Positions 7,490 to 38,656 of a stretch of 38,749 bases of DNA are shown here, in pieces (within the stretch, counting starts at the first letter, position 1; every line of letters starts with the position of its first letter). The translations under genes and the position numbers were made by a program. Below the pieces are notes generated by a model that saw only the letters and a list, made by a program, of their open reading frames with translations, did no database searches and was not told the DNA's origin. The stretch lies in contig JAPLFH010000008.1 in the NCBI GenBank assembly GCA_026390815.1, forward strand, positions 1 to 38,749, read 5' to 3'. This DNA is from Ignavibacteriales bacterium. Lineage in GTDB: Bacteria > Bacteroidota > Ignavibacteria > Ignavibacteriales > SURF-24.

Positions 7490-7835
7490 TGATTGCGGAT
7501 TTCAGAGTAATGATTATGGACTGAAGATTAAATCTGGGATTTTGCAAACCATTGGATGGAGTCGTCATTATCTGATTGTATATTTGGACTGTAAATGAAT
7601 TGATTAACGGCTAAACTACACTTGAAATAAATTGGTTATTGGTTTCTTTAATGAGTCTGCTTTATTGAGTCGTTTGGTATAGAGGTATAAAGTGCAAAGT
7701 GTGGAAATATACCTTATCCCATTATATCTATTTAAGGAAAACTATTTTCCATTTAGTATATCTATTGACTAATGACCTACTGATAATTAACTTGCAATAG
7801 TAAAAACATATTTTTTCAATCAACTAAAGTATAAT
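7490..7835. other. 346-bp gap, no gene seen
   Basis: No coding region is apparent. The sequence is AT-rich and contains degenerate GGTATAAAG-like words near 7686 that resemble the minisatellite unit at 23691. A small inverted repeat GGAAAA-CTA-TTTTCC lies at 7736-7750. No clear terminator follows the dehydrogenase gene and no clear promoter or ribosome binding site precedes ald. Confidence 0.5.
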
Positions 7836-22114: not shown

Positions 22115-22837
22115 ATGAAAAAGATGTTTACTTTAATATTGATGTTTTCCTCACTCTGTTGTTCGCAAATTGTGGGACCGAAGATATCTACTCATCAAAT
22201 GCAATTTGATTTTGGTAAAATAAAAAATAATGAAAAAGTAACCCACGATTTTATTATTTACAATACTGGCGGAGACACGCTTGAAATTAAAGATGTTCGT
22301 GCTGGCTGCGGTTGTACTGCTGCTAAACCGGATAAGAATAAACTTATTCCAGGAGAATCCGCCAACATAAATGTTAAGTTTGATCCTTTTGGAAGGAAAG
22401 GACATCAACAAAAATATGTTTATATATCTTCTAATGATAAAGACACGCCAGAATTAAGATTAACTTTTACTGCCGATATAGAAGAAGAAATTCCAGGAGT
22501 GGTCAAATCAAGTGGAGCCAAATTGCAATTAGAATATGCGACTCATGATTTTGGAATTATTCAAGAAGGTAAGGTTGTTGAGTGGACGGTAAGTTTTAAA
22601 AATGTTGGTGATGCAATTTTAGAAATTAAGGATGTTAAAACTTCTTGCGGATGCACAGCAGCGGTTGTAAGCGGAAAATCAATTAAACCTGGTGAAAGCG
22701 GCAGCCTAAAAATTGAATTTGACTCTAACAATAAATCAGGTAAAATTAGTAAGACAGTTTCAATCGTGAGTAATGATGTAATCAATTCAAGTCAAACCGT
22801 TGTAATTACGGCTGATATACAAAAGAAAGTAGACTAA
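22115..22837 (+). CDS. Exported protein with two DUF1573 domains
   Basis: The protein has 240 residues and an N-terminal signal sequence (about 1-18, with adjacent Cys15-Cys16 but no canonical lipobox). Two tandem DUF1573 repeats follow, each with F-D/H-F-G near its start and a C-G-C-T-A motif (64-69 and 177-182), in Ig-like beta-sandwich layout. DUF1573 proteins are common in Bacteroidota and their role is unknown. The stop overlaps the accD start in the sequence TAATG, so translation is likely coupled. Confidence 0.83.
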
Positions 22838-23676
22838 TGGCTTGGTTCAGTAGATCAAAAGAAAAGATAGCTGCGGATAGTGTTAAAAAAGATCTGCCGG
22901 ATGGCTTGTGGGAAAAGTGCCCAACCTGCGGAGAAATAATTCATAAAAAACAATTTGAAATAAATCTTTGGACGTGTTCTAAATGCGATCATCATTTTAG
23001 AATTGGCAGTGCGGGTTACATTTCTCTTCTTTTTGATACGAATAGTTTTAAGGAAGCTGATAAAAAAATGCGTTCTGCCGATCCTCTTCAATTTGAAGAT
23101 ACAAAAAAATATTCTGATAGAATTACAACCACCATAAAAAAAACGGGGTTGAATGATGCAGTGAAAACCGGCGTTGGTAAGATTGATGGAATTGAAGTTT
23201 CATTTGCGTGTATGGATTTTGGTTTTATTGGTGGTAGTATGGGTTCTGTAGTTGGAGAAAAAATTTCTCGGGCGATTGAAAGAGCTTACAAATATAAAAT
23301 TCCAATGATAATTATTTCGCAAAGTGGCGGAGCAAGAATGATGGAAGGAGCTTATTCTTTAATGCAGATGGCTAAAACCAGCGCTCATCTTGCCAGACTC
23401 GCAGAAGAAAAAATTCCGTACATATCAGTTTTAACTGATCCTACAACCGGAGGTATTACTGCCAGCTATGCTATGCTTGGCGATGTTATAATTGCTGAAC
23501 CAAAAGCGCTGATTGGATTTGCAGGTCCGCGCGTAATAAAACAAACAATCGGAAAAGATTTACCGGAGGGATTTCAAACCTCAGAATTTTTACTGGAAAA
23601 TGGTTTTGTGGATTTTATTGTTCACCGGAAAGAAATGAAGAGTAAGATTACAACTATGCTTGAATTAATGAATTAG
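22837..23676 (+). CDS. accD: Acetyl-CoA carboxylase carboxyltransferase subunit beta
   Basis: The protein has 279 residues. The four-cysteine zinc finger is C28-P-T-C31 and C47-S-K-C50. The carboxyltransferase core contains [35 protein letters not shown] and [15 protein letters not shown]. With AccA it forms the carboxyltransferase that makes malonyl-CoA for fatty acid synthesis. accA is not in the window. Start ATG overlaps the preceding stop by one base. A minisatellite begins 14 bases after the stop. Confidence 0.94.
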
Positions 23677-23690
23677 GGATATAGTTATAA

Positions 23691-23850
23691 GGCTATAAAG
23701 GTATAAGGTTATAAAGGTATAAGGCTATAAAGGTATAAGGTTATAAAGGTATAAGGTTATAAAGGTATAAGGTTATAAAGGTATAAGGTTATAAAGGTAT
23801 AAGGTTATAAAGGTATAAGGTTATAAAGGTATAAGGTTATAAAGGTATAA
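23691..23850 (+). repeat. Minisatellite, ten 16-bp units
   Basis: The unit is GGTTATAAAGGTATAA, which can also be read as alternating GGTTATAAA and GGTATAA. Ten units fill 160 bp with only C-for-T changes in units 1 and 3. Degenerate copies continue to about 23880 and reach the start of the next gene. There are no spacers, so it is not a CRISPR array. Slippage could change the copy number. Confidence 0.95.
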
Positions 23851-23890
23851 AGTATATCGGTATAAATGTAAATAGGTATAAGGTGGAAAA

Positions 23891-24349
23891 ATGGTAACTT
23901 CGCAGGAAGTTTATAACGATGTCGGGATTGGAAATATGATTATAAACGAACCTCACGACTTGTATAACGCGAATAAGGACTTTACTACATTAAGCGCTTG
24001 GATTAAATGCCGTGAAGTAAAATTATTTTTTTATAAAAAGATTTTAATTTGCTTACTGAAAGAAGAGAAGTTTAATTTAGATAATCAAATCAGAAAGGCT
24101 TCAGTTAGTATCACAGCTAATGTAGCTGAAGGTTATGGAAGATATCATTACCAGGAAGGAATTCAGTTTTATAGAATCGCAAGAGGTTCACTTTATGAAC
24201 TTAAAGATCATTTAATAAGCTGTTTTGACTTTGGTTATGTTGATACTGACCTTAAGCTGGAAGGCGAAAAATTAATTGAAGATGCTAAAGTTACATTAAA
24301 TGGATTTATTAATTTTATTAGGAATAGGATTAAAGAAGGCAAAGGTTGA
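23891..24349 (+). CDS. Four-helix-bundle protein of the 23S rRNA IVP (S23) family
   Basis: The protein has 152 residues. The family core is residues about 34-147: QIRKASVS (66-73), NVAEGYGR (77-84), IQFYRIARGSLYEL (91-104) and C-terminal helix GFINFIRN. The first 33 residues are longer than the usual form of about 120. Relatives are encoded within 23S rRNA intervening sequences or free-standing, and Avd of diversity-generating retroelements has the same fold; the cellular role of free-standing ones is unknown. The protein is basic in part and may bind nucleic acid. Its ribosome binding site GGTGG comes from the degenerate tail of the minisatellite. An inverted array of related sequence lies downstream. 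Confidence 0.82.
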   Translation: MVTSQEVYNDVGIGNMIINEPHDLYNANKDFTTLSAWIKCREVKLFFYKKILICLLKEEKFNLDNQIRKASVSITANVAEGYGRYHYQEGIQFYRIARGSLYELKDHLISCFDFGYVDTDLKLEGEKLIEDAKVTLNGFINFIRNRIKEGKG

Positions 24350-24442
24350 AGTATATGAGAATATGGTATAAAGTGATAGGGTAGGATAAAAAGGTATTGG
24401 GAATAAAATATAAGGTACCTAATGTATTTTCATGTTGTTTGC

Positions 24443-24505
24443 CTATACCCCTATACCCCTATACCCCTATACCTTTATAACCTTATACCCCTATAACCTT
24501 AACGC
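24443..24505 (-). repeat. Inverted array related to the upstream minisatellite
   Basis: On the plus strand there are three exact copies and one partial copy of CTATACCC (24443-24473), then TTTATAACC-TTATACCCC-TATAACC. On the minus strand this reads as GGGGTATA units mixed with the GGTATAAGGTTATAAA unit. Positions 24468-24489 are the exact reverse complement of 22 nt of the 23691-23850 array. The two arrays therefore bracket the four-helix-bundle gene in opposite orientation. Confidence 0.85.
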
Positions 24506-24518
24506 ACCAAGAGCAACA

Positions 24519-25370
24519 ATGAAGATCATTAACACCATAAAAGAAATGCATTCCTTTTCTAAAAAAACGAAAAGAGAAGGGAAGACTTTAGCTCTGGTTC
24601 CAACAATGGGATTTCTGCACGAAGGACATTTATCCCTTGTAAGAAAGGCAAAGGAAATAGCGGATATAGTTGTTGTTTCTCTTTTCGTTAATCCAACACA
24701 GTTTGCTCCCAATGAGGATTTTACTAAATATCCTCGGGATGAGGAAAGAGATAAAAAGCTTTTAGAAGATTTAGATGTTGATGTACTTTTTATTCCATCT
24801 GAACAGGAAATTTATCCGAAAGAATTTCAAACCTACGTAGATGTTTGGGAAATTACTAAGAAGCAAGAAGGAGAATTCAGACCTGCACATTTTAAAGGTG
24901 TTACAACTGTGGTTTCAATTCTTTTTAATTGTGTTTATCCGGACTATGCTATCTTCGGACAAAAAGATGCACAACAAGTTGCTGTTGTCAAACAAATGGT
25001 AAGAGACTTAAAATTCGATATACAAATTGTTGTTTCTCCAATTGTTCGCGAATTTGATGGATTAGCGATGAGTTCCAGAAATGTATATTTATCTGTGGAA
25101 GAAAGAAAAGATGCTTTAGTTTTATATGAATCTCTTAAGTACGCTATAAGCAAGGTTAAAGAAGGTGAAAGGAATATTAGAGAAATAGTTAGTCAAATGA
25201 TTAAAAAAATAAATTCAGTTAAAACATCCAATCTGGAATACATAAGAATTGTTTTATCATCCAATTTTTCCGAATCTGAAATTCTGATTGAGGGTAATGA
25301 ATATTATGTTTTAATAGCTTGCAGGATTGGCGCAACAAGGTTGATAGATAATGTACTGGTGAATGTCTAA
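24519..25370 (+). CDS. panC: Pantothenate synthetase
   Basis: From the ATG at 24519 the protein has 283 residues, normal for PanC. Motifs are VPTMGFLHEGHLSLV (27-41, with the HIGH-like H-E-G-H), NPTQF (58-62), RPAHFKGV (121-128), FGQKD (146-150) and MSSRN (184-188). It condenses pantoate and beta-alanine using ATP. The open frame extends upstream to an ATG at 24432, but those 29 codons translate the repeat array into a Pro/Tyr-rich string unlike any PanC N-terminus, so 24519 is chosen. Only a weak GAG precedes it. panB and panD are not in the window. Confidence 0.93.
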   Translation: MKIINTIKEMHSFSKKTKREGKTLALVPTMGFLHEGHLSLVRKAKEIADIVVVSLFVNPTQFAPNEDFTKYPRDEERDKKLLEDLDVDVLFIPSEQEIYPKEFQTYVDVWEITKKQEGEFRPAHFKGVTTVVSILFNCVYPDYAIFGQKDAQQVAVVKQMVRDLKFDIQIVVSPIVREFDGLAMSSRNVYLSVEERKDALVLYESLKYAISKVKEGERNIREIVSQMIKKINSVKTSNLEYIRIVLSSNFSESEILIEGNEYYVLIACRIGATRLIDNVLVNV

Positions 25371-36682: not shown

Positions 36683-38656
36683 ATGAAAAGAATATTTTTA
36701 TTGATCACTTTATTAAACTGTTATAGTATTACAAACGCACAATGGTTTTGGCAAAATCCATTACCACAAGGTAATACACTTAACAATGTAAAATTTATTT
36801 CTTCAACAGTTGGCTGGGCTGTTGGTTTCCGTGGCATAATACTTAGAACAACAAACGGAGGTACAACCTGGATTTTACAACCAAGTAGAACAATGAACGA
36901 TTTATATGGTGTATCATTTATCGATGTAAATAATGGGACGGCTGTTGGTGAGGGTGGTATAGTTCTCAGGACTACAAATGGCGGAATAACTTGGACTCCA
37001 CAATCAAGCGGAATAACAACCGGTTTAACAAGTGTCTCCTTTATCGATATAAGTAATGGGGCAGCTGTTGGTGATAACGGCACAATCCTAAGAACCACAA
37101 ATGGGGGAAATACCTGGACTTCACAATCGAGCGGAACAATAGCCAGGTTAACAGGTGTCTCCTTTACTGATACAAGTGATGGGACGGCTGTTGGAGATAA
37201 CGGCACAATCCTAAGAACCACAAATGGGGGAACGACCTGGACTTCACAATCAAGCGGAATGACAGAATATGAATATTTCGGTGTCTCCTTTATCGATGCT
37301 AATAACTGGACGGCTGTTGGTGGTGGTTGGACTGGCACAAAATACGAGGGAATTATTATCAGAACTACAAATGGTGGAACAACCTGGCGGGTACAAGCAA
37401 CCGGAACAACAAACTATTTGAAGTGTGTCGTTTTTATCGATGCAAATATTGGAATGGCTGTTGGAGATAACGGCACAATCATAAGAACCACAAATGGGGG
37501 AACGACCTGGACTGAACAATCAAGCGGAACAACAAACTGGTTATACGGTGTCTCCTTTACCGATACGAATAATGGAACGGCTGTTGGTGTTGCCGGTACA
37601 ATCCTCAGAACTACAAATGGAGGAGCTACCTGGACTGAACAATCAAGCGGAACAACAATGGATTTGAACGGTATCTCCTTTACCGATGCAAATAATGGGA
37701 CGGCTGTTGGTAGAAATGGCACAATCCTAAGAACCACAAACGGTGGAGTAACTTGGACTGAACAATCAAGCGGAACAACAATGGATTTGTACGATGTCTC
37801 CTTTACCGATGCAAATAACGGGACTGCCGTTGGTTTTAATGGTACAATTTTAAGAACTACAAACAGCGGAACAACCTGGACTTCACAAACAAGTGGAACA
37901 ACAGAATCATTATCAGGTGTTTTCTTTATCGATGTAAATATTGGGACGGCAGTTGGTGATTTTGGCATAATCCTTAAAACAACAAATGGTGGAATAACCT
38001 GGACTTCACAATTAAGTGATAAAATATATTTATTAAATGGTGTCTTCTTTACCGATGCAAATAATGGGACGGCAGTTGGTTGCCTACAAATCCTTAGAAC
38101 TACGGACGGCGGAACAACCTGGACTGAACAATCGAGTGGAACATCTGACTATTTGACTAGTGTCTCATTTACCGATGCCAATAATGGGACGGTTGTTGGT
38201 TTGGGCGGCATAATCCTCAGAACCACAAATGGAGGAGTAATCTGGAATTTACAATCAAAAAATCCCGGCTTATTTGATGTTTCCTTTACCGATTCAAATA
38301 ACGGAACCGCTGTTGGTATGAATGGTACAATTCTCAGAACCACAAACGGAGGCGTTACTTTTATAGGAGAAGAAAATGGCAGAACTAAACCACAAGAGTT
38401 TATTCTTGCACAGAACTATCCCAATCCGTTTAATCCGAGTACAAAAATAAAGTACACAGTAGCCCCATCTAATCTCCCCCAAGGGGAGGCTTTAGTTACA
38501 CTAAAAGTATTTGACTTACTAGGGAACGAAGTAGCAACTCTTGTTAACGAAGAAAAAACAGTAGGAAATTATGAAGTGGAATTTGCTGGTAATAATCTTG
38601 CAAGCGGAATTTATTGTCCCTTACTGGGATTGGCGGGCAAAAACCCTCGCCTTTAG
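36683..38656 (+). CDS. 13-repeat YCF48-like propeller protein with disrupted T9SS sorting domain
   Basis: The protein has 657 residues and a signal peptide ending near residue 19 (SITNAQ). Thirteen units of about 41 residues carry V-S-F-x-D-x-N-N-G-T-A-V-G and I-L-R-T-T-N-G-G-x-T-W, up to residue about 560. A T9SS sorting domain starts at about 570 (AQNYPNPFNPSTKIKYTV), is interrupted at 594-603 by APSNLPQGEA, resumes with LVTLKVFDLLGNEVATLV, and after SGIY (641-644) changes into CPLLGLAGKNPRL before a stop. The last conserved strand (usually ...KKMILLK) is missing, so export by T9SS may fail. It may be a recently damaged gene. Confidence 0.75.
   Translation: MKRIFLLITLLNCYSITNAQWFWQNPLPQGNTLNNVKFISSTVGWAVGFRGIILRTTNGGTTWILQPSRTMNDLYGVSFIDVNNGTAVGEGGIVLRTTNGGITWTPQSSGITTGLTSVSFIDISNGAAVGDNGTILRTTNGGNTWTSQSSGTIARLTGVSFTDTSDGTAVGDNGTILRTTNGGTTWTSQSSGMTEYEYFGVSFIDANNWTAVGGGWTGTKYEGIIIRTTNGGTTWRVQATGTTNYLKCVVFIDANIGMAVGDNGTIIRTTNGGTTWTEQSSGTTNWLYGVSFTDTNNGTAVGVAGTILRTTNGGATWTEQSSGTTMDLNGISFTDANNGTAVGRNGTILRTTNGGVTWTEQSSGTTMDLYDVSFTDANNGTAVGFNGTILRTTNSGTTWTSQTSGTTESLSGVFFIDVNIGTAVGDFGIILKTTNGGITWTSQLSDKIYLLNGVFFTDANNGTAVGCLQILRTTDGGTTWTEQSSGTSDYLTSVSFTDANNGTVVGLGGIILRTTNGGVIWNLQSKNPGLFDVSFTDSNNGTAVGMNGTILRTTNGGVTFIGEENGRTKPQEFILAQNYPNPFNPSTKIKYTVAPSNLPQGEALVTLKVFDLLGNEVATLVNEEKTVGNYEVEFAGNNLASGIYCPLLGLAGKNPRL
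36840..38360 (+). repeat. Tandem ~123-bp repeats within the YCF48-like gene
   Basis: Units of about 123 bp (41 codons) are repeated about 13 times, with long runs conserved at the DNA level, such as GGCACAATCCTAAGAACCAC in three units (37079, 37202, 37472). This suggests recent duplication or gene conversion. The repeats also create long open frames on the minus strand that I do not consider genes. Confidence 0.85.
38462..38491 (+). repeat. Palindromic in-frame insertion within the sorting domain
   Basis: These ten codons encode APSNLPQGEA, absent from the other three complete sorting domains in the window, and contain the palindrome CTCCCC-CAA-GGGGAG (38474-38488), which is GC-rich against AT-rich surroundings. 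Reading frame is kept on both sides. It looks like a small palindromic element of the in-frame type. Confidence 0.6.

Follow-up and report, generated by a model that had tools for sequence, protein, structure and literature searches.

An S23 gene between inverted tandem arrays in an Ignavibacteriales genome, and the repeat-ended element that it may represent

A small gene of the S23 family, coding for a four-helix bundle protein, lies between accD and panC in an Ignavibacteriales genome (GenBank assembly GCA_026390815.1, contig JAPLFH010000008.1, positions 1 to 38,749; this whole stretch of 38,749 nucleotides is called the window below). It is preceded by a tandem array of a short word and followed by an array of the reverse complement of that word, which raises the question of whether gene and arrays belong together and, if so, what the protein is for. 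We propose, with a probability of roughly 0.6, that gene and arrays make up an insertion unit, a selfish element that ends in repeats and has gene-less derivatives, and that S23 is the protein by which the word is read. The features concerned are as follows.

22837..23676, + strand: accD, left neighbour of the insertion, which adjoins panC in 4/4 family relatives
23686..23884, + strand: upstream arm, a tandem array of 12.5 copies of the 16-bp (2 x 8) unit TATAAGGTTATAAAGG (Tandem Repeats Finder, TRF, and inverted-arm comparison)
23891..24349, + strand: S23 (23S_rRNA_IVP, "four helix bundle protein") open reading frame (ORF), 152 amino acids (profile matches and AlphaFold2, AF2, model)
23987-24301, + strand: PF05635 domain within the S23 ORF
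24442..24501, - strand: downstream arm, in which the reverse complement of the upstream word forms an 8-bp unit repeated about 6.8 times (TRF and inverted-arm comparison)
24519..25370, + strand: panC, right neighbour of the insertion

An earlier reading of the window, made from the letters alone (the sequence-only reading), had noticed an S23-type gene between an array and its reverse-complement counterpart, and this layout was confirmed both by TRF and by arms that are complementary over 58 nt (84 to 86%; 94% over 34 nt). The upstream array (23686-23884) has a period of 16 with 92% matches, its G-rich strand being the coding strand; the sequence-only reading had given the unit as 16 bp in 10 copies, but the number of copies is about 12.5. 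TRF placed the downstream array at 24442-24495, with a period of 8 and 6.8 copies of the unit CCTATACC. The 22-nt exact inverted match that had also been reported is readable in the sequence, as GGTATAAGGTTATAAAGGTATA upstream and its complement inside 24442-24501. When one flank was compared with the reverse-complemented opposite flank (the flank-complementarity score), the locus gave 76, compared with a maximum of 28 in 100 shuffles and of 33 among 254 control genes of the same genome, and we conclude that the inverted arms are not due to chance.

The 152-residue ORF matched PF05635 (E = 2.1e-23; 83 bits against a cut-off of 33.8) and TIGR02436 (78.4 against 24). A model built by AF2 with 61 S23 sequences had a mean pLDDT (predicted local distance difference test) of 88.3, whereas a single-sequence model (pLDDT 40.6) was unusable. 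The former is a four-helix bundle that superimposes on 2gsc (Z 19.4, 1.0 Å over 115 residues), as well as on 2rld (Z 15.6) and on Avd of the diversity-generating retroelements (4dwl; Z 14.3, 1.6 Å over 109 residues), which bears out the relation in fold to Avd that had been suggested from the sequence. The S23 protein of Xanthomonas campestris has been reported as a homopentameric ring (PMC4990558).

Do the gene and its arrays come and go together? In 4/4 family relatives accD stands next to panC, the two matches being 46 to 102 bp apart, and the S23 gene and both arrays are absent from the gap. Because the absence is joint, we regard gene and arrays as one insertion, as the sequence-only reading had supposed when it described a repeat-delimited cassette placed between accD and panC; in no case did this site hold the gene but lack the arrays. 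A second site, which belongs to a different bacterial family, has the gene and its arms in seven genomes (the source of the query locus and six others whose matches cover the query largely or completely). Three genomes lack the gene there, one of them of the same genus and one retaining a remnant array. Gene and arms are thus gained and lost jointly.

The genome of the window has 15 S23 places. As read in the flanks, nearly all have short words in repeated copies on both sides, with opposite orientation before and after the gene, and every gene has a word of its own; a score of at least 32 was reached by 8/15 of these loci and by 1/254 genes. We then assembled 153 S23 loci from the family, the phylum (118 genomes), plasmids, and 80 named genomes, of which 145 had flanks long enough for an inverted-arm count. 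With a threshold of 28, picked after the result for the control genes of the window's own genome was known, arms were found in 96 of the 145 (66%), compared with 2.1% of 2,175 mismatched flank pairs of like GC content and, within the same loci, 8/319 control windows (2.5%) and 6/223 control ORFs (2.7%). A word was shared between the flanks in either orientation at 108/145 loci, and in direct orientation only at 12/145. Flanking arms are thus a general feature of S23 genes, each gene having its own word; the sequence-only reading had overlooked both the gene-specific words and the generality of the pattern. Armed loci span about 16 phylum-level groups (phyla read from record titles, and plasmid hosts), among them Pseudomonadota, Desulfobacterota, Nitrospirota, Bacteroidota, Acidobacteriota, Planctomycetota, Bacillota, Patescibacteria, and Cyanobacteria, and S23 is present in 90/118 sampled genomes of the window's phylum.

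The arms have a common construction. Among 182 arms of at least 21 nt, the best self-match was at a shift of 7 in 133 and of 8 in 32, so that the window's word, with its period of 8, is of the less common kind; the mean self-match at a shift of 7 was 0.63, compared with 0.34 in shuffled arms. G exceeds C on the coding strand of the upstream arm at 91/96 loci, with one reversed and four equal, and the median distance from the S23 domain is 40 nt for the upstream arm and 46.5 nt for the downstream arm. A scan of 20 of the S23 loci gave no Rfam match.

Words and proteins were compared among 93 armed loci with an open domain (3/96 with stops in the domain were omitted), leaving out 100 of the 4,278 pairs, those with homologous neighbours or with both members from the window's own genome. 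Word similarity rose with protein similarity at these unrelated sites, and 0/500 permutations reached the observed correlation (4/500 for the GTDB loci alone). The excess word score was 16.9 at a protein similarity of at least 0.8 (seven pairs, all cyanobacterial plasmid loci), 3.4 at 0.6 to 0.8 (93 pairs), and about 1.3 below 0.4. TAGTGG, for example, is common to a Clostridia locus and a Thiohalocapsa locus, and AAGGCACAAAG to loci of Nitrospirae and KSB1, with a similar word in a Bacteroidota locus. The word differs among genes, yet closely similar proteins have it in common even where their sites are unrelated and their hosts belong to different phyla.

One such word is already on record. 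Two Xanthomonas genomes contain 186 and 183 GGGAATC arrays, mostly of four units, and 70 and 75 convergent pairs (PMC4692102); the main text of that report leaves their origin unexplained and contains no occurrence of S23, four helix, or intervening. We found the S23 gene of Luteimonas salinisoli, whose product is 72% identical to the X. campestris S23 of known structure, within GGGAATC arms between accB and accC (neighbours read from the sequence). S23 occurs in 44/99 genomes of the Luteimonas GTDB family, with arms at 28/30 loci read, and the words are GGGAATC, GGGATTC, GGGACTC, GGGACCC, GTGAATC, and others. Four heptads per arm were counted, on each side, at 17 of 22 loci; the other eight of the 30, with other words or no arms, were omitted, and as the unit pattern was picked after the words had been seen, this count is descriptive. 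The pattern GGGAATCGGGAATCGGGA, with up to one mismatch, occurred at least 10 times in 24/44 S23-bearing and 3/55 S23-less genomes (Fisher 3.7e-8, ignoring phylogeny), with totals of 2,707 and 106 matches; a reversed control pattern gave 5 overall. Among 12 S23-bearing genomes reached by locus, GGGAATC was numerous only in Luteimonas (214) and Dokdonella (24), the other ten comprising one with 4 matches and nine with none.

The gene-less arrays of a Luteimonas genome were then compared with the gene-bearing form. Ten loci were read, eight inverted pairs and two single arrays (L295 to L302, and L303 and L304); the pairs have arms of three to five heptads, mostly four, around a loop of 21 to 107 nt, and inner arm ends of the type G-nn-AAAGC, similar to those of the S23 loci of the family. 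Because arm size and inner ends agree, the gene-bearing and gene-less forms look like one kind of element. Arrays that occur widely without the gene had been named as evidence against a cassette; they are indeed numerous in Xanthomonadaceae, yet they carry the ends of the S23 element. One gene-less GGGAATC pair (L299) lies inside an apparent dnaE, as read from the sequence, and dnaE is also marked as repeat-associated in PMC4692102. We also considered whether every S23 element might share an inner AAAG motif; it was clear only in the Luteimonas family, the overall difference being weak (16 versus 9 of 75).

The gene-less elements found in the genome of the window itself make up no more than a related family, to which the following feature belongs.

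7674..7760, - strand: gene-less relative, a degenerate copy from a family of 170- to 200-bp elements with inner inverted GGTATA arrays

Related words near 7686 had been pointed out in the sequence-only reading and are real: about eight elements of this genome, 7674-7760 among them, contain the window's word but no gene, and to that extent the arrays do occur without the gene. Further members are on contigs C32, C7, C54, C48, and C9 of the same assembly (G000). The family has conserved outer ends, TATACTAAATAGAAAGTGGTTTT and AAAACCAATTTATTTCAAGTATA, around the inverted GGTATA arrays, and the element at 7674-7760 may depend on the S23 gene. General dispersal of S23 words in this genome was examined with the words of 11/15 of its S23 loci, in 20 stretches without any S23 place (400 kb, 9% of the genome), and was ruled out there: the mean number of 1-kb windows scoring at least 30 was 1.0 for own words, 1.02 for shuffled words, and 0.48 for foreign S23 words. 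The window's word is the exception.

Several known systems resemble these elements. In REP/REPIN-RAYT systems (REP, repetitive extragenic palindrome) a gene lies between inverted short repeats, and gene-less inverted pairs of the same repeat are found elsewhere in the genome. S23 elements likewise combine a gene between inverted repeats with gene-less inverted pairs, which in Luteimonas have the ends of the gene-bearing form; but S23 is a four-helix bundle and not a Y1 transposase (PF05635 is the sole Pfam match of the ORF), and the ends are tandem heptads rather than one REP hairpin. Intervening sequences (IVS) of 23S rRNA genes, as in Leptospira and Coxiella, have an S23 ORF between complementary ends, as at the accD-panC locus, and that of Coxiella has heptameric repeats before the ORF (PMC4990558); unlike them, the loci described here lie between protein genes rather than inside a 23S rRNA gene, are many per genome, and have gene-specific heptad arms and gene-less derivatives. 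Avd shares the S23 fold, but no reverse transcriptase, template, or variable repeat is tied to the S23 loci as in diversity-generating retroelements; the sequence-only reading saw no reverse transcriptase in the window, and the genome was not searched for one. The GGGAATC and GGGGA(C/T)T heptamers of Xanthomonas and Nostoc (PMC4692102) agree in word and in their mostly four-unit arrays; what sets the present loci apart is the link between the word and an S23 gene. The TAACTGA repeats of Beggiatoaceae, Cyanobacteria, and Bacteroidetes are also intergenic 7-nt tandem repeats, left without an explained origin where PMC4679880 describes them. We found TAACTGA arrays in 8/118 Bacteroidota genomes, with no S23 gene within 1.5 kb at the 12 loci read, and TAACTGA is therefore unsupported as an S23 word.

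On the reading that we favour, the unit is of a general kind, an S23 ORF between inverted arms of a tandem word of about 7 nt (8 in the window), particular to the S23 lineage. The loci above show this anatomy and how general it is, as well as the presence or absence of gene with arms at two sites, the tie between word and protein lineage, and the shared ends of gene-less pairs. The S23 ring would bind the array, perhaps with one subunit per heptad, which would account for a period that stays constant while the sequence varies, and the bound protein would draw the two arms together. The arms would be the ends of a selfish element, which would spread as such; gene-less pairs would be short derivatives that rely on S23 in trans, much as REPINs rely on RAYTs, and the S23-coding IVS would represent the form found in 23S rRNA. 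Movement of the unit, and the part of the S23 protein in it, are likewise our inference. To our knowledge S23 has no catalytic motif, and we therefore assume that cutting and joining would be performed by host functions or by an enzyme in trans.

The layout could instead reflect an RNA-level intervening sequence, in which the arms base-pair with each other once the host operon is transcribed, RNase III excises the S23 segment, and the RNA stem is what is selected. The arrangement equals that of the Coxiella IVS, with 28-bp complementary ends, excision by RNase III, and GACAGAT heptamers before the S23p ORF (PMC4990558), and the complementarity of the arms is kept while the words diverge. A selected sense-RNA stem should, however, favour transitions between the arms that keep G-U pairing in the transcript, and we observed the opposite: 133 break it and 90 keep it (p = 0.005; 43 loci versus 20). 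Moreover, the arms are unequal in copy number (12.5 x 16 versus 6.8 x 8 in the window), some loci have the word in direct orientation only, and a stem needs no strict 7-nt period. Given the pairing result in particular, we consider this explanation unlikely.

Somewhat less likely still is a regulatory system, with S23 as a repressor or RNA-binding regulator and the heptad arrays as its operators, at its own gene and genome-wide. The closeness of the arms to the ORF and the many gene-less arrays of the Luteimonas family are in keeping with it, and translational regulation has been proposed for TAACTGA, with heptamers near start codons (PMC4679880). It leaves unexplained the inverted arms on both sides, the joint insertion or loss of gene and arms, same-ended gene-less copies inside an apparent gene (L299), and the patchy distribution. 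Coincidence, in the sense that small, fast-evolving ORFs happen to share intergenic regions with minisatellites expanded by slippage, is highly improbable, even though tandem arrays without S23 are also present in this genome, given the same-locus controls (2.5 to 2.7% versus 66%), the strand polarity, the period of 7, and the linkage of word to protein.

Several results weigh against the selfish-element explanation. Forty-nine of the 145 loci fall below the arm threshold and 37 share no word either way, and the correlation between protein and word is weak overall (rho 0.08), its signal being in close pairs. The Fisher test of GGGAATC against S23 ignores kinship, and at least 10 matches are present in three members of the Luteimonas family that lack S23. 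S23 words of the window's own genome are no commoner than shuffled ones in the 400 kb searched, and the S23 locus lacks the outer ends of the gene-less family there, which may therefore belong to another element. Two of the eight TAACTGA genomes (G092 and G108) are without S23 among the matches listed, and none of the 12 TAACTGA loci adjoins an S23 gene. Four heptads fit a pentamer inexactly, and one heptad per subunit is a guess. The analysis revealed neither transposition nor a target duplication, and no enzyme.

More tentatively, S23 proteins may be dedicated word-readers of a class of selfish elements in about 16 bacterial phyla, each lineage with its own heptamer and one ring subunit per heptad; gene-less pairs would be their parasites, orphan heptamers such as GGGAATC their traces, and the rRNA IVS their rRNA-located form. 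The rRNA IVS already provide a case of an S23 ORF with complementary ends on either side; the wider class, in which each gene has its own word and gene-less derivatives occur, would be new should the inferred steps prove right. We found no paper in the open-access literature that links S23 genes to heptamer arrays or mobile elements, although one may exist elsewhere. S23 proteins are common and have crystal structures but no known function, and the published descriptions of the Xanthomonas and Nostoc heptamer repeats give no origin; if proteins and repeats are indeed connected, one binding assay could address both questions. The predicted target of each S23 protein would be written beside its gene, a natural set of protein-word pairs would become available for studying how specificity changes, and a selfish-element class would be added whose recognition protein is no known transposase. 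A small bacterial gene between mirror-image heptamer runs thus suggests overlooked selfish DNA and a source of unexplained repeats.

Some observations stand apart from this argument. One 7-kb contig of the window's genome (C21 of G000) has four S23 places, one with an internal stop and one a fragment. Two cyanobacterial plasmid loci (L114 and L115) have S23 genes beside cas genes, in positions immediately following cas2 and between cas6 and cas4; a figure key on CRISPR-linked genes names 23S rRNA IVP (PMC10910872), and heptad arrays could confuse CRISPR-array finders. Elsewhere in the window, a 123-bp repeat in 11.4 copies (36833-38258) lies inside an ORF at 36683-38656.
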